From a virus: a DNA stretch of 31,970 bases. Under the pieces are notes generated by a model that saw only the letters and a list, made by a program, of their open reading frames with translations, was not told the origin of the DNA and did not search any database. Shown one piece after another: positions 6,123-31,244 of the stretch. The stretch is from positions 1-31,970 of the IMG/VR virus record IMGVR_UViG_3300025132_000016; one strand, written 5' to 3'. The first letter of the stretch is position 1. Each line of letters starts with the position of its first letter. Position numbers and translations under genes: made by a program.

Positions 6123-6124
6123 AA

Positions 6125-7006: not shown

Positions 7007-7007
7007 T

Positions 7008-7163: not shown

Positions 7164-7180
7164 AATAATAATTTTTTGGT

Positions 7181-7528: not shown

Positions 7529-7547
7529 TTTAGTTTGTTTTAAAATA

Positions 7548-7567: not shown

Positions 7568-7584
7568 CGTTATTATTTTATTAA

Positions 7585-8142: not shown

Positions 8143-8191
8143 TTTTCGGTTTTTTTGGTTTTGCTTGTTGCTTTGTGCATCAAACTTGTGG

Positions 8192-8222
8192 TAAAAGTAA
8201 AACAATTTTTTATTGTGTGCAA
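8192..8222 (-). promoter_or_regulatory. Promoter of the 185 aa gene
   Basis: TTG (8222-8220), 20 bases, TACTTTTA (8199-8192) on the minus strand. The first 12 bases, TTGCACACAATA, are identical to those of the 5037-5067 promoter, with the same spacing to the downstream box. It lies in the 126-base gap between the metallophosphoesterase and the 185 aa gene. Confidence 0.5.
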
Positions 8223-10756: not shown

Positions 10757-10760
10757 ATTG

Positions 10761-10796
10761 CAATATTAGGTAAACCGCTTGTAATACTATCGCAAT
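10761..10796 (-). promoter_or_regulatory. Candidate late promoter of the lysis cassette
   Basis: Minus strand: ATTGCGATAGT (10796-10786), 17 bases, TAATATTGC (10768-10760 region), then AAT and ATG. The same architecture with the same spacing occurs at 16783, 29029 and 31209. The upstream box ATTGCGAYAGT is nearly identical to the one at 29054-29064. Confidence 0.55.
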
Positions 10797-10802
10797 AAAT
10801 GG

Positions 10803-10937
10803 TTATCGGCCTTGTCCCTTGTAACGTTTTTTGTAGTTTTTAGACGTTTTTGATTGTGATGTTTTGCTTTTGGCGTGTATGCCTTTGCGGGTTTTTTTAG
10901 GTGTTGCAACGTGTGTTACTGTATTACGCTTTGCCAT
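10803..10937 (-). CDS. Small, very basic protein, 44 aa
   Basis: The ATG at 10937 overlaps the preceding stop by 14 bases and opens a 45-codon frame. It encodes MAKRNTVTHVATPKKTRKG, a Ser/Lys/Thr-rich middle, and the ending NYKKRYKGQGR. Roughly a third of the residues are Lys or Arg, with almost no acidic residue. I recall similar 40-50 aa basic proteins ending YxGQGR near virion or lysis genes of Bacteroidota phages, with no assigned function. Binding to DNA or RNA in the virion is a reasonable guess. Its stop codon lies just upstream of the conserved ATTGCGATAGT promoter box. It is below the usual length cut-off of gene finders. Confidence 0.7.
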   Translation of the reverse strand: MAKRNTVTHVATPKKTRKGIHAKSKTSQSKTSKNYKKRYKGQGR

Positions 10938-11115
10938 TTTTATTCCAATCTCTAATTTCTTTTGCCACACGTAAAGTTGTCCAAACTATGGCAACAAAGT
11001 ATGATAATAACTTTAAAGCAACCTCAACGTCTGTTAAAGATAATCCAATTGCCATTGTGTTTATTGCTAATGTTTGCGGACAAACCCTACTGCATATCTC
11101 TAACATTTTTTCCAT
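10924..11115 (-). CDS. Small membrane protein, 63 aa
   Basis: The protein has two Cys near the start (8 and 12), a moderately hydrophobic segment (13-27) and a clear membrane helix (about 32-50, ending YFVAIVWTTLRV), then a charged tail. It could be an antiholin or a second holin because the lysis genes are close by, but that is inference from topology and position. It lies one base downstream of the fibre-like gene and overlaps the small basic gene. Confidence 0.6.
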   Translation of the reverse strand: MEKMLEICSRVCPQTLAINTMAIGLSLTDVEVALKLLSYFVAIVWTTLRVAKEIRDWNKNGKA

Positions 11116-11116
11116 T

Positions 11117-11764
11117 TTAATTTTCTATTAATATTTGTGCGTGATACGTTATTGCATTTGCCGTAGATGTTTGTATTAACGGTATTAAAATATCACCCTT
11201 TGTTACTGCATAACTACCGGCAACCTCAAAACAATTGTAACCCTTTGTGGCCGTAACGGTTGCCGTGCATAATAATTCAATTTTATTTGGATCGGTTGGT
11301 GTGCAATCCGGTGTTGTTACGCCTATATGTAAAGCCACATCGCCCGTTGCTAACGCATTAAATCCACCACTAAACAAAACAACGTTGCTATCTTTTGCAA
11401 CTGTTATTTCTGATGCAGTTAATATAACATCGGTCGGTATTGGTGTTATTGGGAAAGTTGATACGCCTAAATCCGTTCCGTGATAAAAATCTGAGTAACG
11501 TATTTCCTTGCAACCCAATTGCCTTGCAAATAAATTACTAAAACTTGGAGGCGGTGCTTTTGATTTGGATGCTTTGGGAGCCGGTGTTTCCACGCAACCA
11601 CGAAAACTTTGTTGTAAATAATCTTTTGATGCACCACCCGAATCATCAACCCACGCAATTTGTCCCGATGCGTTTTTCGTTAAACGTGTTGAGTTACTTG
11701 CACCCGTAAACCCTTTTGGCACGTGCAATTGTGAATCATTTAAATCTTTGTGTAAATTACTCAT
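11117..11764 (-). CDS. Virion fibre- or appendage-like protein, 215 aa
   Basis: The first 40 residues, MSNLHKDLNDSQLHVPKGFT then GASNSTRLTKNASGQIAWVD, resemble an N-terminal anchor that I recognise from small fibre or head/tail appendage proteins of Bacteroidota phages. A Pro/Lys/Ser-rich hinge follows (about 58-75). The C-terminal domain (about 95-215) is Thr/Val/Ala-rich and predicted mostly beta, as in a trimeric fibre head or carbohydrate-binding tip. It may be a receptor-binding or decoration protein; the exact location on the virion is unknown. It overlaps the 99 aa gene upstream by 8 bases. Confidence 0.5.
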   Translation of the reverse strand: MSNLHKDLNDSQLHVPKGFTGASNSTRLTKNASGQIAWVDDSGGASKDYLQQSFRGCVETPAPKASKSKAPPPSFSNLFARQLGCKEIRYSDFYHGTDLGVSTFPITPIPTDVILTASEITVAKDSNVVLFSGGFNALATGDVALHIGVTTPDCTPTDPNKIELLCTATVTATKGYNCFEVAGSYAVTKGDILIPLIQTSTANAITYHAQILIEN

Positions 11765-12056
11765 TATATTTGTTTTTATATGTGAATTTAATTACCATTT
11801 CCGTTCCCTTGCCATCTGTTTGTGTTACATACAACACACCGTTTTCGTGCAATTCCTCCATTTCTTTTTTGGTAAAATTATATTCGTGATCAAAATCTAT
11901 TTCGTTTTTTGGTTTGTCTTTATCTTCAAATAAATTAATGCAAACCGCAACCCGTTGTGATAGGTTTGGAAATTCACTTGTTGTTACATTATCCTCAATG
12001 CAACGTGAAACAAATTTATCACGTGATTCGTCCTTATTTGGTTTTGGTAATGGCAT
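11757..12056 (-). CDS. Head-associated small protein, 99 aa
   Basis: Residues 1-45 (MPLPKPNKDESRDKFVSRCI, then EFPNLSQRVAVCINLFE) match a short motif often found beside, or fused to, capsid and prohead-protease genes of phages: a PKPxxxES start, a Cys in SRC, and QRxAVC. The function of that motif is not established to my knowledge. The C-terminal half (about 60-99) is a charged alpha/beta segment ending in alternating hydrophobic residues. It sits between the connector candidate and the fibre-like gene, consistent with a structural or assembly role. Confidence 0.5.
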   Translation of the reverse strand: MPLPKPNKDESRDKFVSRCIEDNVTTSEFPNLSQRVAVCINLFEDKDKPKNEIDFDHEYNFTKKEMEELHENGVLYVTQTDGKGTEMVIKFTYKNKYNE

Positions 12057-12058
12057 AA

Positions 12059-12601
12059 TTAATATATTATCATTCCGTGTGCTTTTGTAACGTTGTTTGT
12101 GCTACGTCCACACGTTTTATCTACGTCCGTATTGTTTTTGTATTCCGGAAATTCTGATGCGTTATCATCTAAAAATTGCACCAACTGTTTTAACATAACA
12201 TTTCCACGTCTGTATGTATCTTGTTTATATACGTTTAATTCTTTTGGCGTTACAACTTTACTAAAATCAGGTATTGCACTAACAATACCACTTGAAGTTG
12301 AATTGTCTTGTATTTCATTTATTACCTCAAAACGCACAAACCACGCAAACGTTGGTATTAACCATTGTGCCATAAAATTATCTTCTGCGGTTGTTCCCGT
12401 TCCACCGGTGTCATAAGTTTCTTTTAAATGCAAATAAAACTCATCACCCAATGGCAATTTTAAATGTGCCAACTCGGACATTTGTATTAAATTATTGCTA
12501 ATTAATGTTGTATCGGTGTTTTGGTTTGTAAATGCGTATTCAATTACCTGACTTGCAGTAATTAAAGGATCATAACCAATGTAATTATTTATTATTGCCA
12601 T
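12059..12601 (-). CDS. Putative head-tail connector/adaptor protein, 180 aa
   Basis: The gene directly follows the portal gene with a two-base gap, the usual place of the first head-completion protein. The protein is largely helical (about 15-60 and 80-105), has a Gly-rich loop around residue 65 and ends with a Cys-containing tail. The size and helical bundle fit adaptor proteins of the HK97 gp6 type, and it reminds me of the DUF6712 proteins of Bacteroidota phages. That comparison is by general pattern, not by a diagnostic motif. It would form a ring below the portal. Confidence 0.45.
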   Translation of the reverse strand: MAIINNYIGYDPLITASQVIEYAFTNQNTDTTLISNNLIQMSELAHLKLPLGDEFYLHLKETYDTGGTGTTAEDNFMAQWLIPTFAWFVRFEVINEIQDNSTSSGIVSAIPDFSKVVTPKELNVYKQDTYRRGNVMLKQLVQFLDDNASEFPEYKNNTDVDKTCGRSTNNVTKAHGMIIY

Positions 12602-12603
12602 AT

Positions 12604-13842
12604 TTATTCAGTTTTTTCGTTTTTACCTAACATACGATCGCCATATTCAGTTGCCTCAAAACCTAATAACTCACGTTGTTCATTAATTGTTAAAACTTGG
12701 TTTGGCACAATATCACTAATAAAACTAACCGGAGGCTCATATACTATTTGAAAATCATCAATATTTAAGTTGGTTTGTTCCTTTAACACTTGTTGTATTT
12801 TATTAAACAACAATTCTTCTACGTCTTTAATAATTGTGCCCATAACCATCTCCCACGCAATACGTATTTCATTACCCGTGTTGCTCATTTTACCCGCACT
12901 AACAATACCACTCATTGCCGGTTGCCAACGGTGCGATGTAATAATATTTTGGCTTGTTAAACGTTGCAACTCCATAAATGAGCCATCACTATTGTCGCTT
13001 AATACGGTAACATTTGCGGGTGATGTATCACCGTTTTTAACTAAAAATAATATTTTACTATTGTTACCCTTACCCGTCCAACGCTTTTGTGCGTCTTTAA
13101 CTAATTGCTCGGCTTCTTCTTCGCCCATATCACCATTAATTTCAACAATGGCACTTGGCGTAAAATTGTTTTTAAATTTACTATGGTTATACGATTGTAA
13201 TTCCCAATCTATGGCCAACCATTCTAACGAGGCCACAAAATCAGGTAAACCGTAATAATTAAAAGTTGGCTCATAATCTTTAAAATGTATAATTGCGGTT
13301 TTCTTTTCAAACTTTGGGTAAACCGGCACAACAACCGTATCCTCTTTTGAACTGTTATATTTTGCCCAATTTGGGTGTATATAAACGTGTTGTTGGTTTT
13401 TACTAATACGACATTTAGTTGCATCAATGTGGTATAAATTAACACCCGCATCGTGTTGAACAACTTGCAAATATGCGTTACCAAACGAATAATAATCGTC
13501 CATTAAACGCCCGTAAACTTCACGCATTGAATCGCCCGTATTTACGTCATCAATAAACCTTTGCACAAACGGATCTTCTGATGCAAATTGTTTACCAATT
13601 GACAATATTTTCTTTTGCCCTAATATTGCACGGTGCGTTGGTGATTGCCTTTTTATTTCTGCTAAAAATTGCGGAAACAAATTATCATCGCCAAATGGTA
13701 TAAATGGCGTTCTAATATTTTTTAAATCTACGTTTTCACGTATTTTTTCGGGCACACCAATATTAAAAATATCAAATTTGGTAAACCCCAACTTTTTACC
13801 AACGCTTTTAATCGTTTGCGTTGTCGTTTTCTTTCGTGCCAT
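12604..13842 (-). CDS. Portal protein
   Basis: At 412 residues this has the normal size of HK97/SPP1-type portals. Recognisable features are the N-terminal FGDDNLFPQFL segment (about 50-60), a helical MREVYGRLMDDYYSFGNAYL region (about 105-124) and the Asp-Ala-rich wing with HIDATKCRIS. The long stem/crown region holds EWLAIDWELQSYNHSKFKNN (about 208-227) and NIITSHRWQPAMSGI near 304. It forms the dodecameric ring through which DNA enters and leaves the capsid. Its position after the tail tube and terminator, far from the terminase, is unusual. The start overlaps the 66 aa gene by 35 bases. Confidence 0.85.
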   Translation of the reverse strand: MARKKTTTQTIKSVGKKLGFTKFDIFNIGVPEKIRENVDLKNIRTPFIPFGDDNLFPQFLAEIKRQSPTHRAILGQKKILSIGKQFASEDPFVQRFIDDVNTGDSMREVYGRLMDDYYSFGNAYLQVVQHDAGVNLYHIDATKCRISKNQQHVYIHPNWAKYNSSKEDTVVVPVYPKFEKKTAIIHFKDYEPTFNYYGLPDFVASLEWLAIDWELQSYNHSKFKNNFTPSAIVEINGDMGEEEAEQLVKDAQKRWTGKGNNSKILFLVKNGDTSPANVTVLSDNSDGSFMELQRLTSQNIITSHRWQPAMSGIVSAGKMSNTGNEIRIAWEMVMGTIIKDVEELLFNKIQQVLKEQTNLNIDDFQIVYEPPVSFISDIVPNQVLTINEQRELLGFEATEYGDRMLGKNEKTE

Positions 13843-14008
13843 CGTTTACCGGTTTTTTAGGTTCTTTCAATTCTGTTACTTGCCTATATCCATTTTTATA
13901 CAACTGTTTTAACTGCTCTTGTGTAACATTACGTGTTACATATTTAACACCATTATATCTAAATGAAGTTGCCTTTGCTACCGGTTTTTTCAATTTATAC
14001 TTTGCCAT
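13808..14008 (-). CDS. Small basic protein before the portal, 66 aa
   Basis: The N-terminal half is Lys-rich with alternating hydrophobic residues (ATSFRYNGVKYVTRNVT), and a helix follows (QEQLKQLYKNGYR). This resembles small beta-hairpin-plus-helix proteins found near head genes. The C-terminus is acidic and Asn/Asp-rich. I cannot name a function. It starts a transcription segment just after the terminator that closes the capsid/tail-tube operon and overlaps the portal start, so it may set portal translation. Confidence 0.6.
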   Translation of the reverse strand: MAKYKLKKPVAKATSFRYNGVKYVTRNVTQEQLKQLYKNGYRQVTELKEPKKPVNDGTKENDNAND

Positions 14009-14027
14009 ATCAAATTATTTTTTATTT

Positions 14028-14043
14028 GTTGTAAAAATACAAC
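14028..14043. promoter_or_regulatory. 16-base palindrome upstream of the portal operon
   Basis: GTTGTA-AAAA-TACAAC (plus strand) has perfect 6-base arms. It lies between the terminator at 14055-14089 and the 66 aa gene and includes TATTTTTA on the minus strand, which could be a weak downstream promoter box. An operator-covered promoter is possible, but no good upstream box was found. Confidence 0.3.
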
Positions 14044-14054
14044 ATTTTTTAAAC

Positions 14055-14089
14055 AAAAACGGGAGATATCCGTATTGAATATCCCCCGT
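14055..14089 (-). terminator. Intrinsic terminator after the tail tube gene
   Basis: Minus strand: ACGGGGGATAT, loop of 9, ATATCTCCCGT (14089-14059), an 11-bp stem with one G-U pair. Four Ts, G and three Ts follow. It closes the protease-capsid-tail tube unit, 43 bases after the tail tube stop. It is the strongest hairpin terminator in the window. Confidence 0.8.
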
Positions 14090-14132
14090 CAAATTGTGGG
14101 TAAACTTAAAAAAACATTTACCAAATATTTAA

Positions 14133-14693
14133 TTAAGGAGTTACGGGTATTGTTCCCGTAAATTCTCTTGGATATTCACCTTGTTGTGTTGTCAAAGTAA
14201 TTTGCGTTCCGTTTGCGTCTTGTAACGCAATACCCGTTGTTTGCTCACCACTTGTAAACTCCATATATGCAGTTTCTTCAAATATTTCGTCCCAACCTAA
14301 AACAAATTTATATGTTTCAGCCGGTGATGCACAATCGTCCGCATAAGTTTCAACAATTGCAGTAATACCACAACTTGTTACAAGTTCCATTAAATCGTGA
14401 TTAACTTCACACGTTACCTTTGGTATGTAAAATTCCAAAGAAATTTCAATAAGTGTTGAACCATTTTCACGTGTTGCACTTGCAGTAAAACCCGCAGTCC
14501 CTCTATCAAATTCCCATTTGTAGAAAATGTCCGATGCGTCTACCATTGCAACGGCATTATATGCGTGTAAACACCCCGTATCTTCCGGTGTGAACGCATC
14601 AATTTGATCCGTATTTGCTAAATGTATTGCTTTTAAACCGCCTCGTCTGTTCCTGTCGCAACAAACGACCGTATGTCCTGATGTAATTGCCAT
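14133..14693 (-). CDS. Putative major tail tube protein
   Basis: The 186 aa protein is mostly beta-strand, with repeated Thr/Glu-rich strands and a final stretch (about 145-186) typical of tail tube subunits: a FVLGWDEIFEETAYMEF strand pair, a Gly-Ala loop, and an ending with REFTGTIPVT. It follows the major capsid gene and precedes a strong terminator, the place of a very abundant structural protein. It contains six cysteines, including an early CC pair (residues 11-12), which is unusual for a tube protein. A capsid decoration protein is the alternative, but length and strand pattern favour the tube. Confidence 0.6.
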   Translation of the reverse strand: MAITSGHTVVCCDRNRRGGLKAIHLANTDQIDAFTPEDTGCLHAYNAVAMVDASDIFYKWEFDRGTAGFTASATRENGSTLIEISLEFYIPKVTCEVNHDLMELVTSCGITAIVETYADDCASPAETYKFVLGWDEIFEETAYMEFTSGEQTTGIALQDANGTQITLTTQQGEYPREFTGTIPVTP

Positions 14694-14712
14694 ATCTAAT
14701 CTTTTTTATTTA

Positions 14713-15690
14713 TTAATAACCTATTTGTGTCAATGAATCGTGTAAAAACTGAACACCCAACTTGAAGTATGATCTTACGTAAACTTTTTCAGTTAAATCA
14801 TCGTAAAACATTTTCATTTCACCTTCAAAATCGTTTGTGTCTGTTCCAACTGCTAAATTTTGTTTTGCAGTAAATACACCACAATTATCATCACTTACAC
14901 TTAATTGTGAAATTGCAGTATCCCAATCATACATTGGTATTACTTCAATACCTCTAAAGTATAATTTTAAACTACCATCAACCATTTGAGAAAAACCTTC
15001 TGCGTTTCCTAAATCTTCTAATTTACCCATATAACCTTGATAAATTGATCTTGTTACATAAAACGCCTTTTCGTTATTTGGCACACCGTGTAATGCACTT
15101 GGTGCATCGTTGTATAAACCACGTAACGCATCTAAACACGCATCATCAGTTAATGCACCGTCTGCAATTGCCGTTTTTCTATTGTTAATTACTGAATCCG
15201 CTTTTAATAGTTTCCACCAACCATCAGTTTGGTCATAACAAGTTGAGTGATCACCACTTGCACTTGTATCACCCCACCACGCAATTCTCACAACATCACT
15301 TGATATTCCGTTTCTAACGTTTGCCAATACTGTGTCCATTAATTGTGTGCCTTCAAGGTTGAAAACATTAATACCATTTTTAAAACTTTCTTCAATATAA
15401 GTTCCAAAAAATTCCTTTTGACATTGGGAAACCGCTACACGCATTCTTCCCGCCTCAATTACTTTATCATTTACATTAAAATCACCACTTTCTGCGTCAT
15501 TACAACCCGTGTATTTTTTTACAATACAAGATAATGAATCCGCAGTATAAAGGTTCATTTTGTGTTTTACGTTAGGTATTACCCTAAATTGAAATAGATC
15601 CGAATCTCTAAAAATCGGCTCTAAAAATAACTCGCTAAATTGTGCACCGCTATACGTTGCCGAGATATTGTCTAATGCTACATTTGCCAT
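14713..15690 (-). CDS. Major capsid protein (HK97 fold)
   Basis: This 325-residue protein directly follows the prohead protease and has the pattern of HK97-fold capsid proteins. The N-terminal arm contains TYSGAQFSELFLEPIFRDSD. A beta-rich E-loop/P-domain with VIEAGRMRVAVSQCQKEFFG (about 77-96) follows, then a long spine helix region (LMDTVLANVRNGISSDVVRI). The A-domain strands are near the C-terminus (LYFRGIEVIPMYDWD at about 244-258, and FKLGVQFLHD). There is no large cleaved delta domain at the N-terminus, in agreement with a separate scaffold nested in the protease gene. Seven cysteines are present, more than usual for a capsid protein. Confidence 0.85.
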   Translation of the reverse strand: MANVALDNISATYSGAQFSELFLEPIFRDSDLFQFRVIPNVKHKMNLYTADSLSCIVKKYTGCNDAESGDFNVNDKVIEAGRMRVAVSQCQKEFFGTYIEESFKNGINVFNLEGTQLMDTVLANVRNGISSDVVRIAWWGDTSASGDHSTCYDQTDGWWKLLKADSVINNRKTAIADGALTDDACLDALRGLYNDAPSALHGVPNNEKAFYVTRSIYQGYMGKLEDLGNAEGFSQMVDGSLKLYFRGIEVIPMYDWDTAISQLSVSDDNCGVFTAKQNLAVGTDTNDFEGEMKMFYDDLTEKVYVRSYFKLGVQFLHDSLTQIGY

Positions 15691-15715
15691 AACTTTACTT
15701 TTTTATTATTATTAA

Positions 15716-16159
15716 TTATTTACTTCTTTTTATTGCCTTAACCATTGCATTAAAAAACGCCATATTAGGATCAACCGTTGCCTCACCTAACGTTGGGTCT
15801 GCATCTGCTTTAACATCAGTTTTAACCGCTTTTAGTTTTGCAATTTCGTTTGACTTGTTCTCTAATTCAATATTTTTATTTTCAATTTCCTTTTGTGCGT
15901 TTTCAATTTCCGCATCTTTAAGGCCAATTGCTTCTTCAATTTTATGAACTGCGTCCTCAAGGTTTTTCACTTGGTCTTTTAATTCTTCATAAGTTTTTGC
16001 CCAATCTGTTTCTTCGGCTAAACTTTCCTCGTGCCCTTCTTCGTGTTCATTTGTAGGTGTTACACCTAACATTGATTTAATTTTACCAATTAACGTTGCG
16101 TCGTTTGTTGGTGCGTTGTCTTTATTTTCAACAACTTCTTTTGCAGTATTTTCCGCCAT
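15716..16159 (-). CDS. Nested scaffold protein (internal start in the protease gene)
   Basis: Within the protease frame, Met207 (ATG at 16159) is preceded by an A-rich leader whose last bases AAAGTTATGGC are the same as at the capsid gene start. Translation there would give a 147 aa, acidic, Glu/Lys-rich protein. It has a predicted coiled coil (about residues 255-320 of the full protein) and a basic C-terminal tail (MVKAIKRSK). This is the layout of lambda C/Nu3, where scaffold is made from an internal start in the protease gene. The internal start is an inference from sequence context. Confidence 0.5.
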   Translation of the reverse strand: MAENTAKEVVENKDNAPTNDATLIGKIKSMLGVTPTNEHEEGHEESLAEETDWAKTYEELKDQVKNLEDAVHKIEEAIGLKDAEIENAQKEIENKNIELENKSNEIAKLKAVKTDVKADADPTLGEATVDPNMAFFNAMVKAIKRSK

Positions 16160-16777
16160 AACTTTTGTGTTTTGATTATTGATTACTAAATTAATTTTAT
16201 CGCTTGTAATATTGTTAAACATTGAAACATCATAATTGTTTTCAATTTTTAACGGCTCAGTAATGCCATTAATTAAACCCAACTCCAATGTTTCTTTTGA
16301 ATTAAACCACGATTCAACGTCCATTAAACTTATGTAATGGTTTGCATCGTGTTTACTTTTACTTGCATATATTTCCGCAATTTCATTCCTTATTTTATCA
16401 AGTATGTTTGCAGTTTTACGCAACTCGTTAGCATCACCACCGGTTTGTGCAAATGGGTTATGGATCATAAATAATGAATTTTCCGCCATTTCTATTTTAT
16501 CACCCGCCATTGCAATAACACTTGCAATTGATGCACATATCCCCTCAACTTTTGTTGTAACTGTTTTGGTGTGGTTTTTTAACGCATTGTAAATTGCTAA
16601 ACCATCAAAAACACTACCGCCCAAACTATTAATGTGAACGTTAATATTTTTGTTTTTTAAATCTTGTAAATCTTCAATGAAATTTTTTGCGTTGGTATCA
16701 TAACCACCCACCTCGCTATAAATAAAAATATCTGCGGTTTCGCTCTTGGCGTTATTTTGTATGTCATACCAATTCAT
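15716..16777 (-). CDS. ClpP/S49-like prohead protease with C-terminal scaffold domain
   Basis: Residues 1-175 form a ClpP-type serine protease domain. The oxyanion loop is near HINSLGGSVFDGL (48-60). The catalytic serine is Ser83 in EGICASIASV, with His106 in SLFMIHNPF and Asp153 in LMDVESWF. Residues 180-353 are low-complexity, acidic and coiled-coil, as expected for a scaffold. The enzyme would process or remove scaffold during head maturation. At 353 aa it resembles lambda gpC-type fusions. The gene starts five bases after the TATTTTTG box of a candidate late promoter and is followed by capsid and tail tube genes. Confidence 0.88.
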   Translation of the reverse strand: MNWYDIQNNAKSETADIFIYSEVGGYDTNAKNFIEDLQDLKNKNINVHINSLGGSVFDGLAIYNALKNHTKTVTTKVEGICASIASVIAMAGDKIEMAENSLFMIHNPFAQTGGDANELRKTANILDKIRNEIAEIYASKSKHDANHYISLMDVESWFNSKETLELGLINGITEPLKIENNYDVSMFNNITSDKINLVINNQNTKVMAENTAKEVVENKDNAPTNDATLIGKIKSMLGVTPTNEHEEGHEESLAEETDWAKTYEELKDQVKNLEDAVHKIEEAIGLKDAEIENAQKEIENKNIELENKSNEIAKLKAVKTDVKADADPTLGEATVDPNMAFFNAMVKAIKRSK

Positions 16778-16782
16778 ATTCG

Positions 16783-16818
16783 CAAAAATAAAAACAATAA
16801 AAAAATTGTTTACGAAAT
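16783..16818 (-). promoter_or_regulatory. Candidate late promoter of the capsid operon
   Basis: Minus strand: ATTTCGTAAAC (16818-16808), 17 bases, TATTTTTGC (16790-16782), then GAAT and the ATG of the protease. Both boxes and the spacing are identical to the site at 31209-31244, although the 17-base spacers differ. It fills the 50-base gap between two genes. Confidence 0.65.
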
Positions 16819-16827
16819 AAATGGAAA

Positions 16828-17199
16828 TTAGATTTTGGCTTTTTTGTTTCGCTTTTGGTTTTTTAATTTAAGTTTATACTCGCCAACAATATTTTGTGTG
16901 CGTGAAAACTTTGGTCGGTATTTATAGACAATGCCTTGTATTTGTCTATCGCTTAAATTGTATTTAATAGATAAGTCCATAAACGTATGTGTGACGTGGC
17001 CTTCGTTTTTCCTTAACAAAACATCAAAATCATAAATAATTAAATAGTTACGCACACGTGTTGGCTCACATAAACCCTTTTCCACTAAATGATAAACAAC
17101 GTCTTTTGGTGTTGCAAACTCGCCAAAACGTGTTTCCACTTCACTCCACATTATGTCAATGAAATCAATAACGTAATTTATGTTGTTTGGTTTTGCCAT
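16828..17199 (-). CDS. Helix-turn-helix-like protein, 123 aa
   Basis: The C-terminal half contains a candidate helix-turn-helix (FMDLSIKYNLSDRQIQGIVY, about 73-92) followed by a very basic tail (KLKLKNQKRNKKAK). The N-terminal half is helical (about 8-50). It could be a transcription regulator or a DNA-binding packaging accessory protein. It lies immediately before the capsid-operon promoter, so control of that promoter is worth considering, though nothing proves it. It overlaps the upstream gene by 22 bases. Confidence 0.55.
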   Translation of the reverse strand: MAKPNNINYVIDFIDIMWSEVETRFGEFATPKDVVYHLVEKGLCEPTRVRNYLIIYDFDVLLRKNEGHVTHTFMDLSIKYNLSDRQIQGIVYKYRPKFSRTQNIVGEYKLKLKNQKRNKKAKI

Positions 17200-17486: not shown

Positions 17487-17522
17487 AATATACAAATTAT
17501 TTTTAACAAATGTATGTTAATT

Positions 17523-17708
17523 TTACCACTTACCCAACGGACATTTGCCATCAAATTCTGCCGTTACACTTGTTTTGGCATTTAATAAGCATTTGCAAAC
17601 GCTACAACTATCATAATTAAATAACCATAAAAATTTATTTGAACGTTTGTCACATTTACGGCATATTGCTAACCGCTTTTTTTTAATTTCTTTACTAACT
17701 GTAAACAT
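17523..17708 (-). CDS. Small zinc-ribbon protein, 61 aa
   Basis: Six cysteines at 16, 19, 35, 38, 40 and 56 form CRKC, CSVCKC and a final CPLGKW. This is a pattern that I recognise from small phage proteins downstream of the tape measure gene. Four of the Cys probably bind one zinc ion. The function is unknown. The gene follows the tape measure by 10 bases and belongs to the same transcription unit. Confidence 0.7.
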   Translation of the reverse strand: MFTVSKEIKKKRLAICRKCDKRSNKFLWLFNYDSCSVCKCLLNAKTSVTAEFDGKCPLGKW

Positions 17709-17718
17709 AATTTAAAAT

Positions 17719-21825: not shown

Positions 21826-21827
21826 AA

Positions 21828-24800: not shown

Positions 24801-25262
24801 AAGTAATGGTGCGTCCGGAAAAAAGTTTCCCGCACTAAAATCAATATCACATAAATTTAATTCACTCAACGCATTTACCCACTTGTAATTTGCACCATAT
24901 ACATTGGCCTCATAATATTGTGGAATGCCTTTATATTCTGTTCCTTTAACTTGAAATTTACCTTGCAAAACCAACATACCGTCAACAAATATTTGCACAT
25001 CTTGGTCTTCTACATATTGAAATGTTTCGTATAAACTATCCGAGTAAAGGTTTTTTAATATTGCGTTATTATGCTCGGTTGCGGGTAATTTAAAAGTTTT
25101 GGAGAAACTACCTTTTGAACTTTGCGGGTCTTGCACGTCCTTAATGCTATATGTTAAGGCCAATGGAAAGTTGGTAATATCTTCAATTTCAAGATAACCG
25201 GTAACACCGGCCGTTGTGCTATCTACAATTATAAACTCTATATTTGGTGTATATTGGCTCAT
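21828..25262 (-). CDS. Large tail-tip/baseplate hub protein, 1144 aa
   Basis: The N-terminal domain (about 1-140) contains GSFSKTFKLPATEHNNAILK, a hub-like signature found in tail-tip proteins of Bacteroidota phages. The middle (about 270-520) is rich in Trp, Tyr, Pro and Gly and has several Cys pairs (CPTC, CYGC, CEWNGC), suggesting disulfide- or metal-stabilised surface domains. About residues 560-800 look like another hub domain. The last 200 residues are Asn/Gly-rich with short repeats (NIGNNKNFNIG) and end in a fibre-like segment. It probably joins the tail tube to receptor-binding parts. The preceding gene ends as TAATG, sharing one base with this start. Confidence 0.65.
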   Translation of the reverse strand: MSQYTPNIEFIIVDSTTAGVTGYLEIEDITNFPLALTYSIKDVQDPQSSKGSFSKTFKLPATEHNNAILKNLYSDSLYETFQYVEDQDVQIFVDGMLVLQGKFQVKGTEYKGIPQYYEANVYGANYKWVNALSELNLCDIDFSAGNFFPDAPLLANFGRDAIMDTWQFGIAGETIGGAQTHIVYPLVNTGQWNNNNFGDAFVAPSDMMPSFYFYNMLKCIFGAQGYTLNSNFFETDWFKRLVSLLPKEKFQNSDAVIEQYSFEYEGTQPTDWKTPLNYYSASGTPTSGNNFDGGLMYSGVVCPTCDPSGLITSQFLTPKFDPASPISWFALPTTNEKTVAGWWWGAYYDYRVPYFLPNPCGSGNQIIGWDWDCINLNPNTSPPPFPIQNGYQINTDTFQTDFLGRYIFNGSLNVEMDNQYILSNPVSAVDPAPLWIWPNGTADGGVGITPCYGCQTADGITECEWNGCTYVANAYLVHYKKSTDRWHLIHVDSDRKYDPTNQPLFYAGFYCNSYPLPASPNLEFDLNWSGVQIDILDEDDKVFVYTEVTMERWHNEDTGFSFSQKVMSMCQAKYRITKSEFNGSLSPDIIEGGSVNLASLLPCDMTQLEWINGLTGLFNLFWQSDEQSKVVTVEPRDNFILPATQAIDWTDKLDKGQTEKNTFVYDALQRNLCFTYTNDGADGFVEERNRRRGQVCELGSHAMNLGELYNNEDQQIGSDFYAPTYMMYDKTISTNNGAYKQPWIPVIHGEYNPIWNNTVNVNQPEKVIDFAPRILVWYGYQPLNQNDGSTNANTWKWGFDNNTSPYQELTRYPFAGTFADQDGNLGGSLQIGAVTFDNPSLYFENSAINATGGAPPYDMSNGLYEMFWEYNILTILERPRIKTVFMKLTPVDIASLDFRKLIYIESAQSGTYWIINKIIDYKVGKNNLTQVELFQYANARPLKTKFPTIGVGFGGNVTPFDSDYVHVLVQDGKITNNHINTTLGIYTGKGNAVLETGINTPTIKGSAKNYKTATNTNYFDDGTQAPVNAKFNQSANIGNNKNFNIGVTTIGENITGNKSGNIIIGGQNNPKNNQEIQLTSGNRTAVGINNGMFLEGGGGVVYYEDATTGRIEEVITGIEIFDLDRSAHKKYTYARVVKQNENII

Positions 25263-26662
25263 TATAATCTTGGTGTTCGTTGGTTAATACTTTGCTCAAA
25301 ATTAAATTTAACTCGGTAAACATTTTCGGTTGTTTTAACTATTTCGGTTGTTGCTTGATTTATTTTTATAGGTTTAAACCAATTTGGTTGCTCAAGTATT
25401 GCAACGGCCAAATCACTATCAACAACCTTTTTATTTGCGGTGTTTTTGTGCCTTAAATAAACATCGGTTGAACTTAACATTTCAATAAAATGTTCCGCAT
25501 ATTCTTTACGCATTGGGTGTGTTGTAACTGAATATTTAATAACACTTTCATTTGCAAAATTAACCGCACCATAATCCATTGCATTATTCCAATTATTGTA
25601 ACCCGTGCTCTTTGTATAACTTAACATATCGTTTTTAATTGTTTTACGGTATGAGCCATCGCTTGTAACCATATCATATCCACCCAACATATTTTTAAAT
25701 GCAAAACGCAAATAACCTTTACCGTTACAACTGCGATCGACTGTAAAACTATACAACGTTGAGTTTAATGTATATGCACACGGTGCGGTTGTTACTGTTC
25801 CCGCCTCCACGCCAACTTGGTAACTTAATACATTTTCAAAATCTGTCCCCTCTGCTCCGTTTGCGGTTAAACCGTCAATAATGTCTTTAAAACCACACAT
25901 AAAAGTTACAACATTACGTGTTTCGGTTAATGTTAAATAATGTGTGTTTAATGTGCCCGATGCACCAAACGTTTTAATGGATACACGATAACCACAATAT
26001 GTTGTTGATAAAGGCCTACACATTAACATATAACTTTCCGTTGGCTTTATTGTCACTTTACTTAATGGCTTTCCGCCACTAACTGAAATTGGATAATTAG
26101 TAAAAAACCTTTTATATTGTGCACCGCTTGATGACCAATTTAAGTTAAAGTAAAAAAACGTTGAGCCATCTATACTGTTTGATGATACTGCACTATCTAA
26201 CCACGCTTGTTCCGGACACCCCTCGTGCACGTAAAATGTATTGGATTGTTTAGGCAATGGATCAACTTCAATAAGGCCGGTTGTTGCGTCTAAATATTCA
26301 CGGTAAAAATAAACATAACATTTAAACACCGCCACATCTTCCCAATTTACAACGGTGTTACTTAATACCGTATTTAATTCACCCAAAACAAAATTGCTTG
26401 GAAAATCTATTAAAGTGTATTTGGTAACGGTGTTATATATTTCACTCGCATCAAACTTAAATACATCAGCATTTGCCAAACTTGGTGCACACCTATACTC
26501 GCCACCAACTTGCGTTGCCACACCGGTTGTTTGGTCTTGAACAAAACACTTGGCAATAATGTTTGTTGTGTTTGATGTTGTTTCATACACATTAAACGAT
26601 ATGGGTATTAATGTTGAACATAATCGGTTTGCCTTTGGTTGTATTGTTAATGTCATTGCCAT
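25262..26662 (-). CDS. Minor tail/baseplate protein, 466 aa
   Basis: The protein is beta-rich and Thr/Asn/Cys-rich. Its most telling part is the C-terminal third, where YLRFAFKNMLGGYDMVTSDG (about 320-340) matches a motif that recurs in tail proteins of Bacteroidota phages, including crAss-like ones (a LRF..N.LGG.D pattern). The last 70 residues contain HFIEMLSSTDVYLRH and end with NFEQSINQRTPRL. It may be a distal tail or tail-tip structural protein. It is coupled to the larger hub gene by TAATG and follows the tail-completion genes. Confidence 0.6.
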   Translation of the reverse strand: MAMTLTIQPKANRLCSTLIPISFNVYETTSNTTNIIAKCFVQDQTTGVATQVGGEYRCAPSLANADVFKFDASEIYNTVTKYTLIDFPSNFVLGELNTVLSNTVVNWEDVAVFKCYVYFYREYLDATTGLIEVDPLPKQSNTFYVHEGCPEQAWLDSAVSSNSIDGSTFFYFNLNWSSSGAQYKRFFTNYPISVSGGKPLSKVTIKPTESYMLMCRPLSTTYCGYRVSIKTFGASGTLNTHYLTLTETRNVVTFMCGFKDIIDGLTANGAEGTDFENVLSYQVGVEAGTVTTAPCAYTLNSTLYSFTVDRSCNGKGYLRFAFKNMLGGYDMVTSDGSYRKTIKNDMLSYTKSTGYNNWNNAMDYGAVNFANESVIKYSVTTHPMRKEYAEHFIEMLSSTDVYLRHKNTANKKVVDSDLAVAILEQPNWFKPIKINQATTEIVKTTENVYRVKFNFEQSINQRTPRL

Positions 26663-26664
26663 AA

Positions 26665-27195
26665 TTATATTGTTATTGAAATGTTATTTGGTAAACCACT
26701 ATCCATTATTCTTATTATTTCTTTTTCGTATGCTTTGCTCACTTTGCTTAACTCGGCATTTATTGCCGGTGAACTTTTACGGACAAAACCTAATTTATTT
26801 TTATCTATTGGGTTGCCTAAACCATAACCACCACGTGATGTTGCGGTTTGTTTTGTTGCAATGGCAAAGGCAATACCACGTATTGTATCGTTATCACTTG
26901 CAATCCCTTTTACTTTGATCCAATTAATTAAACCATTTATGTAATCACTATTTCCCGCATTTGTTCTAACACTTGCATCATACGGCACGTTTTGTGCGGG
27001 GACACCATACTCAACCACACGCCAATAATTTAAACCCATTATTTTTAATGTGAAACTTTCTTGGCCTTGTGGTATAACGCTACTCACTAAACTGTTAATT
27101 AGGTTTCCCGTTGCTTTACGATTTAAGTTTAGCAATTCCGTCCCTAATAAAACGGTTATGTTTGTGCCAATATTTTTTAAATCATCAATTAACAT
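26665..27195 (-). CDS. Putative tail completion protein (HK97 gp10-like)
   Basis: The 176 aa protein starts with a helix, then a beta region with SFTLKIMGLNYWRVVEYGVP, a pattern like the ARVVEYGT strand of HK97 gp10/minor tail proteins. A basic segment with KTGKP-like content (GYGLGNPIDKNKLGF) and a C-terminal helix follow. Proteins of this family join head and tail. It follows the tail terminator candidate with a one-base gap, a common gene pair. Assignment is by pattern and order. Confidence 0.55.
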   Translation of the reverse strand: MLIDDLKNIGTNITVLLGTELLNLNRKATGNLINSLVSSVIPQGQESFTLKIMGLNYWRVVEYGVPAQNVPYDASVRTNAGNSDYINGLINWIKVKGIASDNDTIRGIAFAIATKQTATSRGGYGLGNPIDKNKLGFVRKSSPAINAELSKVSKAYEKEIIRIMDSGLPNNISITI

Positions 27196-27196
27196 A

Positions 27197-27679
27197 TTAC
27201 CTTAATATTAAACAACCACGATAAAAATCTAATCCAAATGTGGCCTTTAAACCTAACAACCGATCGTTTGATGCCTCCTTTAACCTTGTAACATTTAACG
27301 GTGCGGTTTGGTTTAATATTTGCCCGTTATTTTCAAATGTATTACACACGCTTGAATACCACAACAACAAAAGGTTTTCCATTGTATCCCATAAACCCAA
27401 TATGGCTTGGTCATCTGTAACATTGTATGTTGAAGGCAAGTTGTTGTAAATAACAACCGTCCAATTGGTTTTTGCTAACCATTGTGATGATTGTATATCT
27501 TTTGTTTCAAACCTTGTATCCGGTATGTAAACCATCATCATTGGCAACGCCTTGTTATGTATGTTGTCCACCTCTTGCGGTGTGCCAAAATGGAAAGTTC
27601 CAAAATCTGGTGCGGTTTGTCCATTCCACGCACTTTCCATTGCACTAACTATTTCCGTTGTTGTTGTTATATTACTCAT
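27197..27679 (-). CDS. Putative tail terminator protein, 160 aa
   Basis: The sequence starts with a long helix (about 6-18). Strands and helices follow in the alpha/beta order seen in tail terminators (lambda gpU-type): an MMMVYIPDTRFE strand, a NWTVVIYNNLP strand, a helix with LWDTMENLLLLWYSS, and a final ATFGLDFYRGC strand. Size and position next to the gp10-like gene fit. It would cap the tail tube before head joining. No diagnostic motif exists, so this is moderately confident. Confidence 0.5.
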   Translation of the reverse strand: MSNITTTTEIVSAMESAWNGQTAPDFGTFHFGTPQEVDNIHNKALPMMMVYIPDTRFETKDIQSSQWLAKTNWTVVIYNNLPSTYNVTDDQAILGLWDTMENLLLLWYSSVCNTFENNGQILNQTAPLNVTRLKEASNDRLLGLKATFGLDFYRGCLILR

Positions 27680-27681
27680 AA

Positions 27682-27900
27682 TTATTTACGTTTTGCGTTT
27701 GCTTTTGCTTTTGCCTCTTTTTCCATTCCTTCCCTTACTGCATTTTCATATTCATTTTTTGCACTACTATAACTTAAATATGTAAACACAACATACAAGT
27801 TTTCGTGCCTTACACTATCAATTGCATTGTGCGGTGCTTGTGTAAACAAACCCGTTTGTGCAACGTTGTATAATGTATTCAACCACCCATAAGGTTTCAT
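27682..27900 (-). CDS. Tail assembly chaperone, second frame (gpT-like part)
   Basis: The frame is open to 28017, overlapping the upstream chaperone gene by 121 bases in the -1 frame. An ATG at 27900 overlaps the upstream stop as ATGA and would give 72 aa by re-initiation. Alternatively, a -1 shift on a run of ten Ts would join this frame to the upstream product. The sequence, with KPYGWLNTLYNVAQTGLF followed by a LSY...E helix, resembles the short C-terminal domains of chaperone fusions (the lambda gpGT type). The end is Lys/Ala-rich. Confidence 0.6.
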   Translation of the reverse strand: MKPYGWLNTLYNVAQTGLFTQAPHNAIDSVRHENLYVVFTYLSYSSAKNEYENAVREGMEKEAKAKANAKRK

Positions 27901-28601
27901 AATTTCCCAATTTTCGGTTGCGTGTCTATTGCCGTTTCTTGCACCGCTTTTGAATACATTCGGATATGTGGTGTGTAGGTGTTTATTTGTTTCGTCAAAA
28001 AAAAAACAAAACCCCACACCGTTTCCATACTTAACTCACCAAACAACCTTTTTTTCTTTTTTACTAATTCTTCATTATAAACTTCATCTTTTTCTCTACA
28101 TAATATTGCCATTTGTTCCGCTATGTGATCAAACCTACTTGTTTTTTGTTGCTCGGCTAATATGTCTAATTGTGCCGTTTCAATAAAATCACCAAACGTT
28201 GAGTTTTGCATATACATTTGCGGGTAATAATATGTCTTGCCTTTTAGTTTAAATTTATTGTTTACTTCATTTTTACTAATTGAGTCCACGCTTTGGTTTA
28301 AAAATTTGTTCATTAATTCTAAAACCTTTTCAACTTGTTTACTATTTGTGTTGTTTAACACTTCCTCACTAATACCACTAAACTCGGAAAATACTTTACG
28401 ATTTAATTTAACGTTATGCAATAACCTTTGGTTATCTAACGTTGTTTGTTCCTCTTTTGTTAGTGGTGCATCTTCTTCAGTTGGCTCAATAAACTGATTT
28501 GTTTTTATTGATGAATATATTTTTGAATATTCTTTTAATGTAATTTCACTCCAACACTCGGGCAACTTAACATTGTGTTTACCAACTTTTAAATTAATCA
28601 T
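27897..28601 (-). CDS. Tail assembly chaperone, first frame (gpG-like)
   Basis: The 234 aa protein begins LPECWSEITLKEYSKIY (13-29), the WxEITLxE start of chaperone-like proteins in Bacteroidota tail modules. FKLKGKTYYYPQMYM (117-131), TFGDFIETAQL (135-145) and a helix around AEQMAILCRE (161-170) follow. Such proteins bind the tape measure during tail assembly. The codons for residues 199-202 lie in a run of ten Ts (28006-27997), an obvious slippery site, and the -1 frame stays open to 27682. Shifting there would give about 306 residues. It is the second gene after the candidate late promoter at 29029. Confidence 0.65.
   Translation of the reverse strand: MINLKVGKHNVKLPECWSEITLKEYSKIYSSIKTNQFIEPTEEDAPLTKEEQTTLDNQRLLHNVKLNRKVFSEFSGISEEVLNNTNSKQVEKVLELMNKFLNQSVDSISKNEVNNKFKLKGKTYYYPQMYMQNSTFGDFIETAQLDILAEQQKTSRFDHIAEQMAILCREKDEVYNEELVKKKKRLFGELSMETVWGFVFFLTKQINTYTPHIRMYSKAVQETAIDTQPKIGKL
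27997..28006 (-). promoter_or_regulatory. Poly-T slippery site for -1 frameshifting
   Basis: Ten consecutive Ts on the coding strand, read as GTT TTT TTT TTG in the upstream frame, allow T-TTT-TTT slippage into the -1 frame, which is open for 105 more codons. The location inside a tail chaperone gene matches the conserved lambda gpG/gpGT frameshift. A sequencing error in the homopolymer is the alternative. Confidence 0.5.
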
Positions 28602-29022
28602 CTTTTGTTTGTTTTATAATGTTTTTTAGTAATGCGTCTTTTTTGTTTTTAATAAACTTGTGTTCGTTAATCATTTCCTCCAACTCACAAATTGTTTCGC
28701 TTATTAATATAAATAAATCTTCAGTTTCATCATTTATTAAATCCTCGTTTTCTTTTGTTTTAATTGCACTTGCAAAACCTATACCGGCAAACAATAAGTA
28801 ATTTGGAAACATATACGCCCACTCGCTTTCATCAATATTCATATTATCAATTTGTTTACCAATATTGTTATGCAGTTGTTTGGCATTACTAATAACCGGT
28901 TGAAAGTTATTATATGCACCAAACTTTTGGTCTTCCGTAATACGGTAAATAAACCCCTCAATTTCCTTGACAAACAATTCCAATATTACTTGGTGTTTTT
29001 TATTTATTGATTTAAGTTCCAT
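28594..29022 (-). CDS. Hypothetical helical protein, 142 aa
   Basis: An upstream TTG at 29031 also opens the frame, but the ATG at 29022 lies six bases after the TATTTTTG box of a candidate late promoter, so I use it. The protein is almost all helix and charged, with the middle hydrophobic segment YMFPNYLLFAGIGFASAI (about 70-87), perhaps membrane-associated, and a Lys-rich C-terminus. It overlaps the chaperone gene by 8 bases. Function is unknown; its place as the first gene of the tail operon suggests an assembly role. Confidence 0.65.
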   Translation of the reverse strand: MELKSINKKHQVILELFVKEIEGFIYRITEDQKFGAYNNFQPVISNAKQLHNNIGKQIDNMNIDESEWAYMFPNYLLFAGIGFASAIKTKENEDLINDETEDLFILISETICELEEMINEHKFIKNKKDALLKNIIKQTKDD

Positions 29023-29028
29023 ATTTTG

Positions 29029-29064
29029 CAAAAATAAAAATTTGTTTTATTATACTGTCGCAAT
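29029..29064 (-). promoter_or_regulatory. Candidate late promoter after the terminase
   Basis: Minus strand: ATTGCGACAGT (29064-29054), 17 bases, TATTTTTGC (29036-29028), then AAAAT and ATG. The downstream box equals those at 16783 and 31209. The upstream box differs from the amidase one (10786-10796) at one base. It lies in the 48-base gap between the large terminase stop and the next gene. Confidence 0.6.
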
Positions 29065-29070
29065 AAAAAG

Positions 29071-30372
29071 TTATCCAAAATAAACAATACGGCTTTTGTT
29101 AATTTCATAAAACACACGCATAATTAATGCATCAGCAATATCCGGTGATCGCCCTAACAATTGTTTTACCTTGTCTTTGGGTGTAATTGATAATTTATTG
29201 TCTTTATCAATGTCGTGTTGCTTAACCATTTCAAACTCTGTTATTATTTGATCTTTTTTACTTTGGTTACTTATACGCACTTGGCCGTTGTTTACCATTT
29301 GGGCAAACTTGTAATAACATTGTGTTTTTAAGTTTTTGTAATTTTCATTGTTTAATGCTTTTGATCCATTAACAAATGATTTGCACCCTTTAATTAAATC
29401 AACAAACCCACCACCCACGCCATCACTATCCGCAACAATGTTACTACGTTGCACGTTGTGTTGCTTTGCAAGTTCTAAAACCTTGTTGGCTAATTCATCA
29501 ATTGCGTTTTTATCAATAACAATAATATCAATGCAATGCCAATTATCCCAAATACATATTACAGATTTATCACGGCCATAACGTGCCACATCAACACTTA
29601 TATACTTAACACCGTTGCCCGTAATATAATCATTGGTAAACATATTCATTAAACCGTCTATTGTAAACAACTGCGTATCATCATCGCTATATTCCCAATC
29701 ACCAAACAATAAACGTTTTTGGTTTAATACGTCCAACCGTTTTAACTGTTCAATATAATGTTTGGAAATGTTGGGGTTGTCGGTAACTAACGAACGTATA
29801 AACTTATGGTTATTTGGTAACTCGCTTTTTACATAAGGTTTGTAAAAACTTGTATATATCCAACCCTTGCTCGGATTGCACGTCATTAACAATTTAGGTA
29901 TTAACCCGTGTTTGTCTAATTTATAACGCATACGGCTTTGTATTACGTTATATGCCATTGGTGTTATTTCCGTTGCCTCATCAATAAATGCACCGGTTAT
30001 TTCCATTGAGCCCAAACTATCAAAATTTGGATCGCTTGGATAATGAAATAAATCTTTTAATAGTATTTCCGATTTGGTGTGTGTTAATGTAATAACACTT
30101 TTGGTTTCGTTATATACAAAATCAACATTGGCATTTAAACCTTGCATACTGCATACCTCAAAGAAACTTTTTAATGTGGTTTCTTTTAAGTTTTTTAAAC
30201 GTGACCGGCCAATAACATAACGTGTGTTTGGATACTTTAAACATTGTTTTAAAACCCAATAACAACCCAATAACGATTTACCACCACCCGCACCACCACC
30301 GTATAAAATTACGTTAGTGTTTTGGTCTTGTAAATAATCAATTGCCGTTGTCTGTTTTATTGATAGAATCAT
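29071..30372 (-). CDS. terL: Terminase large subunit
   Basis: The ATPase domain has Walker A GGGAGGGKS (about 25-33 from the ATG at 30372), Walker B GAFIDEATEI (about 127-136) and the coupling motif TCNPSKGW. The nuclease domain has VDVARYGRDKS, ADSDGVGGG and a final DIADALIMRVF, giving the three acidic metal ligands of the RNase H-like fold. At 433 residues it is full-length. It cuts and pumps phage DNA into the prohead. A GTG at 30396 would add eight residues, but the ATG at 30372 with GGAAA before it is the better start. It overlaps the small subunit by 35 bases. Confidence 0.95.
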   Translation of the reverse strand: MILSIKQTTAIDYLQDQNTNVILYGGGAGGGKSLLGCYWVLKQCLKYPNTRYVIGRSRLKNLKETTLKSFFEVCSMQGLNANVDFVYNETKSVITLTHTKSEILLKDLFHYPSDPNFDSLGSMEITGAFIDEATEITPMAYNVIQSRMRYKLDKHGLIPKLLMTCNPSKGWIYTSFYKPYVKSELPNNHKFIRSLVTDNPNISKHYIEQLKRLDVLNQKRLLFGDWEYSDDDTQLFTIDGLMNMFTNDYITGNGVKYISVDVARYGRDKSVICIWDNWHCIDIIVIDKNAIDELANKVLELAKQHNVQRSNIVADSDGVGGGFVDLIKGCKSFVNGSKALNNENYKNLKTQCYYKFAQMVNNGQVRISNQSKKDQIITEFEMVKQHDIDKDNKLSITPKDKVKQLLGRSPDIADALIMRVFYEINKSRIVYFG

Positions 30373-30739
30373 TTTCCACGTATGTTTTGGTTTCACTCCA
30401 ATTAATAGGTTTGCCGTCCATACCGGTTAATTCCTGTCGCTCTACATAACCACGTGTTTTGCCTTTAGTTTTTAAATAAAATAATATTGCAGTTGCGTTT
30501 CCATCTTTAATTAGTTTCCACAATTCCGCCTCACATATATCAATTGCCAACTCTTGTATTTCATCAACCCTTTGTTTAAACTCAACGTCATTATTGTAAT
30601 AACGGTAAAACGTGCTCCGGCTACATTGTGCAAAGTTACACGCCAACGTTACATTGCCAATATTTTGCTCTAAATGTTTTAATAAAACATCTTTAGTAAC
30701 AACGGTGCGTTTCTGTTCCTTTTTTTTAGTGTGTGCCAT
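30338..30739 (-). CDS. terS: Terminase small subunit
   Basis: The 133 aa protein has a basic start and an N-terminal helix-turn-helix (about 28-48, with TLACNFAQCSRSTFYRYYN). A long central helical segment (53-92) for oligomerisation follows, then a C-terminal tail with GYVERQELTG, a phrase common in terminase small subunits. It recognises the packaging site and activates the large subunit, whose gene overlaps its end. A TACTTTTG box 21 bases upstream of the ATG could provide extra transcription. Confidence 0.85.
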   Translation of the reverse strand: MAHTKKKEQKRTVVTKDVLLKHLEQNIGNVTLACNFAQCSRSTFYRYYNNDVEFKQRVDEIQELAIDICEAELWKLIKDGNATAILFYLKTKGKTRGYVERQELTGMDGKPINWSETKTYVENDSINKTDNGN

Positions 30740-30760
30740 TTTGTAACATTTTGTTTAATA

Positions 30761-30768
30761 CAAAAGTA
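30761..30768 (-). promoter_or_regulatory. Possible promoter box upstream of terS
   Basis: TACTTTTG on the minus strand matches TAnnTTTG, but no TTTG/TTG or ATTnCG box is found at the proper distance. It lies in a very AT-rich 70-base gap and is only a weak candidate. Confidence 0.3.
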
Positions 30769-30809
30769 ATTAAATAAATTAAATAATCTTTTATTTAGTA
30801 ACAATAATT

Positions 30810-31109
30810 TTAATTGTCCATATCATAACCCTCGTGGTTGTAACCACCTAAACTTGCAATTGGCACGTTTAAACATTCAACCATTGCAAACTCAAACACT
30901 TTTGCTTTATTGTCGTAACCTAATACCTCACCCCAATTATCACATAACTGTTCCCACATTTCTTTTGTTTCCGCACTAACCTTTATTGTTATTACTTTAT
31001 CAAACTTTTCATTGGCCGTTAGATCCAAATCCTTTTTATCCGCCTCAATATATTTATCCAAACTTTCGTATTTATCAAAATTTGGTATTAAATTTTTATT
31101 TTTGTCCAT
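30810..31109 (-). CDS. Ribbon-helix-helix-like protein, 99 aa
   Basis: The frame is open to a TTG at 31211 but passes through a terminator hairpin. The ATG at 31109 has the TTTAAAACAATTATT leader found before other genes, so I use it. Residues 37-80 fit a ribbon-helix-helix fold: strand KVITIKVS, helix AETKEMWEQLCDNW, loop, then helix KAKVFEFAMVECLN. Such proteins bind operators as dimers. The N-terminus is Lys/Asp-rich and the C-terminus acidic. Standing first in the terminase unit behind an attenuator-like leader, it may regulate late genes or its own leader; this is inference. Confidence 0.6.
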   Translation of the reverse strand: MDKNKNLIPNFDKYESLDKYIEADKKDLDLTANEKFDKVITIKVSAETKEMWEQLCDNWGEVLGYDNKAKVFEFAMVECLNVPIASLGGYNHEGYDMDN

Positions 31110-31121
31110 AATAATTGTTTT

Positions 31122-31151
31122 AAAAAAAGAACGGGAGCAACCACGCTCCCG
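31122..31151 (-). terminator. Hairpin terminator or attenuator before the ribbon-helix-helix gene
   Basis: CGGGAGC-GTGGTT-GCTCCCG on the minus strand (31151-31132) is a perfect 7-bp hairpin followed by TTC and a run of seven Ts. It lies downstream of the promoter at 31209, so it either ends the preceding small-gene operon or attenuates the 31209 transcript, or both. Confidence 0.75.
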
Positions 31152-31152
31152 C

Positions 31153-31197
31153 TCAACCAAAAAAACCAACACGGGGTAAAACAAACAAAACCCGCAT
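31153..31197 (-). CDS. Possible 14-residue leader peptide
   Basis: Between the 31209 promoter and the terminator, an ATG at 31197 opens a short frame, MRVLFVLPRVGFFG, whose TGA is at 31155-31153, one base before the hairpin. The ATG is 11 bases after the TATTTTTG box. Short frames arise easily by chance, so only its exact placement makes it worth listing. Confidence 0.25.
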   Translation of the reverse strand: MRVLFVLPRVGFFG

Positions 31198-31208
31198 TGT
31201 AGTAATTG

Positions 31209-31244
31209 CAAAAATACGTTTGTTTTTTATTCCGTTTACGAAAT
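31209..31244 (-). promoter_or_regulatory. Candidate late promoter of the ribbon-helix-helix/terminase unit
   Basis: Minus strand: ATTTCGTAAAC (31244-31234), 17 bases, TATTTTTGC (31216-31208). The boxes and spacing equal those at 16783-16818, with a different spacer sequence. Transcription would start near 31200 and run through a roughly 90-base leader holding the short frame and the hairpin terminator. Confidence 0.6.

Follow-up and report, generated by a model that had tools for sequence, protein, structure and literature searches.

Little is known about the timing of late-gene expression in phages of Bacteroidota, bacteria that dominate in the sea and in the gut and whose members have an unusual sigma factor and do without Shine-Dalgarno signals. 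Four similar intergenic sites, all upstream of late genes in the stretch of DNA analyzed here (31,970 nucleotides; hereafter the window), raise the question of which proteins read the late promoters of such a phage. In the papers that we searched on late promoters of Bacteroidota phages, nothing comparable was found.

The window is a fragment or a near-complete genome of an uncultured phage. Its recognized genes all lie on the minus strand, in the order TerS/TerL, tail genes with the tape measure, a 123-aa helix-turn-helix (HTH) gene, head protease, capsid, portal, amidase and replication genes. The terminase large subunit is closest to those of Flavobacterium phage 11b and Cellulophaga phage phi10:1 (48%), and we infer for this reason that the host belongs to Flavobacteriia-like Bacteroidota. 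A search with the portal protein retrieved 80 relatives among metagenome viral contigs, with identities of 52-82%. An accessory block at 5355-8205 (minus strand) holds a DNA methyltransferase (6125-7006), a threonine-dehydratase-like protein (5355-6122) and two genes of no known kind (7181-7561 and 7585-8205); these four genes have no counterpart among the 20 relatives compared, while a small gene inside the block (7008-7205) does match relatives in this set.

Four sites and their upstream box

The preliminary description reported the pattern ATTnCGnnAnn, followed after exactly 17 bases by TAnnnTTGC, on the minus strand at 31244-31208, 29064-29028, 16818-16782 and 10796-10760; both the coordinates and the spacing proved exact. 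The four sites, which we call P1 to P4, precede late genes as had been stated, namely TerS/TerL (by way of a structured RNA and a ribbon-helix-helix (RHH)-like gene), the tail operon, the protease/capsid/portal operon and the amidase. A search of the window finds these four matches only, all on the coding strand, whereas 100 dinucleotide shuffles contain none; the reversed pattern has no match in the window either.

Table. Promoters, genes and other features of the window discussed in the text.
Feature	Position	Strand	Details
P1, late promoter	31208..31244	-	ATTTCGTAAAC, 17 bases, TATTTTTGC; before the structured RNA, then RHH-like gene, TerS, TerL
P2, late promoter, tail operon	29028..29076	-	GGATAAC-N6-TTGCGACAGT, 17 bases, TATTTTTGC
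P3, late promoter, protease/capsid/portal operon	16782..16827	-	TTTCC-N6-TTCGTAAAC, 17 bases, TATTTTTGC
P4, late promoter, amidase/lysis	10760..10808	-	CGATAACC-N5-TTGCGATAGT, 17 bases, TAATATTGC
Conserved structured RNA after P1	31122..31201	-	80 bases, two hairpins, T run after each
RHH-like small protein, after P1 and structured RNA	30810..31109	-	followed by TerS (30338-30739) and TerL (29071-30396)
First tail-operon gene, after P2	28594..29022	-	ATG 6 bases past TTTG
Candidate late activator, 123 aa, C-terminal HTH	16828..17199	-	directly upstream of P3
Arg85 codon, start of recognition helix (SDRQ)	16945..16947	-	Ser in phages with box G/T for C
Head maturation protease, first after P3	15716..16777	-	ATG 5 bases past TTTG
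Amidase (lysis), first after P4	10241..10756	-	ATG 4 bases past TTG

Comparison with related loci extends the upstream element by about 10 bp beyond the part first noted, to a further half-site, TTTCC or TAAC. The complete box thus reads TTTCC-N6-TTCG or TAAC-N6-TTGCG and stands 24-25 bases before the -7 box, in the place of a -33 element. It spans approximately -49 to -35 and is composed of two conserved half-sites 10 bp apart, centered near -42, which are without clear inverted symmetry and look like direct repeats. A 53-base position matrix, trained on other phages only and scored over both strands of the window, ranks the four sites first to fourth (33.8, 29.3, 23.8 and 15.0; next-best position 11.9). 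Its most conserved columns are CC/AC at -34/-33 and TTGCG or TTCG at -27 to -23 (both counted from the T of TA) as well as TAnnTTTG; the remaining spacer positions vary freely. In 60 simulated windows the best score averaged 12.9 and reached 23.2 at most. The amidase site, whose score falls within this null range, is therefore weak when taken alone, and its case rests on conservation of the box upstream of the amidase in 12 relatives.

All four sites are kept in place in close relatives. The box, spacing and near ATG of P3 recur at nearly every relative locus in which the region is present (approximately 290 related loci); the 283 loci that were scored correspond to 111 distinct protease promoters. 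Among these 111, the C of the box precedes the T of TA by 24 bases in 100 and by 25 bases in 11, and the gap from TTTG to ATG is 4-6 bases in every one. The P2 box is found upstream of the tail gene in all relatives with that gene, and the P1 box in the same place in seven of eight close relatives, where the -7 box is often TATTTTTA, ending in A. Among TAnnTTTG elements, presence of the box is linked to a nearby ATG (28 of 71 sites, as against 14 of 507 other ones). Some groups of relatives (Ser type, SERQ type) possess a clear putatively leaderless promoter at the protease only. This comparison across some 290 related loci supports the proposal that the late promoters form a phage-specific class in which the spacing is fixed and the upstream box is non-host.

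In relatives, a sequence some 1.4 kb ahead of the protease (TATTTTTGA) resembles a promoter but was discarded, as it is coding sequence of the orthologue of the gene at 17178. Three relatives (G001, G005 and G006) carry a near-leaderless promoter TAATTTTGTaaaATG with a different box, e.g. CGGACGACGATATGCC, before a gene of 376-386 aa, probably the orthologue of the replication protein; this promoter is possibly a second regulated class.

The host-type element and the start of transcription

The downstream box, TAnnnTTGC, had been described as part of the pattern of a phage-specific promoter class. This part of the description has to be revised: while the upstream box is indeed non-host, the downstream box is the ordinary -7 element of the host, TAnnTTTG, which in Bacteroidota lies at -12 to -5 and is recognized by sigma-A 4-5 bases before the start (PMC6847099, PMC9723704). 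Three of the four sites in the window have TATTTTTG and the fourth, that of the amidase, has TAATATTG; nearly all of the 111 distinct promoters of relatives conform to TAnnTTTG. A -33 element, sought as TTTG or TTG at 17-23 bases, occurs in none of the 111 distinct protease promoters, where 10.9 would be expected, although the box itself forbids part of these occurrences. Because the -33 element is weak even among host (Flavobacterium) promoters (PMC6847099), its absence says little. In relatives, candidate early promoters upstream of the orthologue of 4549-5013 (e.g. L012:16584 and L014:17211) have a different form, TTG-N19-21-TAAnTTTG with a leader of about 20 bases, unlike the late class.

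Near-leaderless starts were also part of the first account, and as a prediction they hold for the tail, protease and amidase sites, where ATG follows 4-6 bases past TTGC. They do not hold for the site at 31244, which is followed by the structured RNA and then by a leadered gene: the first ATG (31197) opens 14 codons only, and the actual gene starts at 31109. In F. johnsoniae, transcription starts 4-5 bases past the -7 element (PMC6847099). Given this gap and an ATG 4-6 bases past TTTG, the predicted start falls at, or within 1-2 bases of, the A of ATG, and the mRNAs are expected to be leaderless. Leaderless transcripts make up 5.5% in F. psychrophilum (PMC9723704).

The RNA behind P1 folds with a z-score of -5.4. 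Across nine phages, both sides have changed in a compensatory manner at 12 of its 20 pairs, and covariation is 0.56 compared with 0.25 after shuffling. A search of Rfam with this RNA returned no match. Its loops, TTTTGTTTGTTTT and GGTTGA, are conserved, and loop sequence TTTGTTTGTTTT is complementary to a conserved AAACAAACG in the promoter spacer. Possible functions are those of a small RNA or of a terminator or attenuator in tandem; transcription continuing past the element would extend into the genes of the RHH-like protein, TerS and TerL.

A candidate reader of the upstream box

The preliminary description left the choice between a phage-encoded activator and an altered RNA polymerase. As the -7 box matches the sigma-A consensus of the host, an altered polymerase is not needed, and neither is a phage sigma factor, for which no gene was seen. 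The activator, on the other hand, now has a named candidate, the 123-aa protein encoded just upstream of P3. The stop codon of its gene abuts the TTTCC half-site of P3, and across relatives the gene ends directly at the box or a short way before it. With 51-82% identity in relatives, the gene ranks with the best conserved ones. The protein is predicted to be all helical (pLDDT 82) with a C-terminal HTH whose recognition helix would begin near SDRQ. Homologs were found neither among isolate phages nor in the cellular genomes searched, and a sequence search of the PDB with the activator profile gave nothing.

Protein and box are also linked by a covariation of one residue with one base. Among the 283 protease loci, Arg85 is accompanied by C in the box in all 187 cases and Ser by G or T in all 96. 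The tail box, located about 12 kb away, follows the same rule: it has C in 21 of 21 genomes of the Arg type and TTGTG, with T, in seven of seven of the Ser type. That two separate promoters track one residue is as expected for a single trans-acting protein. What tempers this result is the Arg/Ser tree, which needs only one or two changes, so that the correlation stands for one or two events, not hundreds, and a clade effect is possible.

Taken together, we put a probability of about 0.8 on the reading, drawn from comparison of sequences, that the late promoters are read by host sigma-A polymerase in dependence on the 123-aa phage activator bound at the upstream box, giving mostly leaderless mRNAs. 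According to this model, sigma-A of the host polymerase would recognize the ordinary -7 element, and the 123-aa protein would bind the bipartite box (about -49 to -35) as a dimer, replacing the -33 element. The bound activator would then touch the polymerase and so supply the contact that sigma-A lacks at these promoters, turning on the tail, head, lysis and terminase operons, presumably late in infection. At three of the four promoters transcription would begin at, or within 1-2 bases of, the ATG. The gene itself comes last in the tail operon, which is putatively under the control of its product. For the first synthesis of the activator, no conserved host-type promoter was found in relatives; one candidate near 17507 (TTG-N20-TACATTTG) was ruled out, as it is not conserved there.

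Three other interpretations were weighed against this model. It is improbable that the promoters depend on an activator but that a different phage protein reads the box, such as the Cro/C1-type HTH protein (3657-3878), the zinc-ribbon protein (17523-17708) or the RHH-like protein. The first two, too, are conserved in every group, and phage P2 is a case in which small zinc proteins activate late genes. Yet of all candidates only the 123-aa gene is situated just before the protease box, and the recognition-helix residue of its product tracks the box base; the RHH-like protein is rejected, since its gene is missing from the Ser-type group, which keeps the promoter. Regarding the other two, the Cro/C1-type gene belongs to the early region (minus strand), as does a second small HTH-like protein (3464-3682, minus strand), and both may be early regulators; the 61-aa zinc-ribbon-like protein (CRKC...CSVC...CPLGKW, minus strand) is encoded near the activator gene.

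Less probable again is a role of the 123-aa protein in repression or autoregulation, in which its binding to the box would block sigma. In favor of such a role, sigma region 4 has a position that a box at -49 to -35 overlaps, and autoregulation is common where a regulator's own gene adjoins its site, as is the case here. However, promoters of which none in 111 has a TTG at -33 are expected to have low basal activity, the targets are all structural, packaging or lysis genes, and the same geometry serves activation at the Mu promoter Pm (PMC4390567). Finally, we give very little credence to the view that the sites are host sigma-A promoters of the ordinary kind, AT-rich upstream, whose box similarity is inherited and owes nothing to a phage factor: this would agree with the host-consensus -7 element and with the weak -33 element of Flavobacterium (PMC6847099), but the box is the most conserved upstream part, stands at fixed spacing, occurs at four non-homologous loci and at two of them changes together with the protein residue.

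Implications and comparison with known systems

Beyond the single phage, we lean towards the view that these proteins represent a new family of phage late activators, widely distributed among uncultured marine phages of Bacteroidota, which would supply the missing upstream contact, direct leaderless late mRNAs and pair one residue with one base (Arg85 with C, Ser with G/T) in a code that was changed jointly at unlinked promoters. The analysis names a candidate gene, predicts where its product binds and specifies which residue should go with which base. The box also provides a way of locating late operons in uncultured phages from sequence only, and the activator-promoter pair could become an orthogonal switch for Bacteroidota genetics. 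If late mRNAs are indeed leaderless as a rule, this would contrast with approximately 5% in the host.

What is more challenging is the family assignment. PHROG 836, annotated as late transcriptional activator, a name that Mor and C of phage Mu carry, is matched by 20 of 28 members of the 123-aa family, in the HTH only and with a best E-value of 0.0026. Profile-profile comparison of the family with Mor/C gives a probability of 41% over 49 columns (P = 2.8e-4), compared with P = 0.045 for an unrelated HTH family. The Pfam family Mor does not match the 123-aa family, a Foldseek comparison of the predicted structure does not match the Mor fold (1RR7: rank 26, E = 3, probability 0.11, TMt 0.34), and the N-terminal half of the protein does not align with the N-terminal dimerization domain of Mor. 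We propose a similarity in mode of action, by analogy and apart from any established family membership: the 123-aa protein may work like Mor/C. At Pm of Mu, a Mor element centered at -43.5 replaces the -35 element (PMC4390567). Common to both systems are a small phage HTH protein, an element near -42 in the place of the -35 and retention of the host sigma factor, although the HTH similarity is weak. They differ in that Mor has an N-terminal dimer domain and inverted repeats, whereas the phage half-sites look direct and are combined with a Bacteroidota -7 element and predicted leaderless starts.

The middle promoters of phage T4, where MotA and AsiA appropriate sigma, are a second parallel: an activator box replaces the element of sigma region 4, and the host -10 is kept. 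The box described here likewise stands where sigma region 4 would otherwise have its element, with the host -7 kept, but it is located further upstream, and an AsiA-like partner was not identified in the phage. With the sigma-A promoters of Bacteroidota themselves (TTTG/TAnnTTTG), the late sites share the -7 element and, as predicted, the short gap to the start; they differ from them by having an upstream box and no -33 element.
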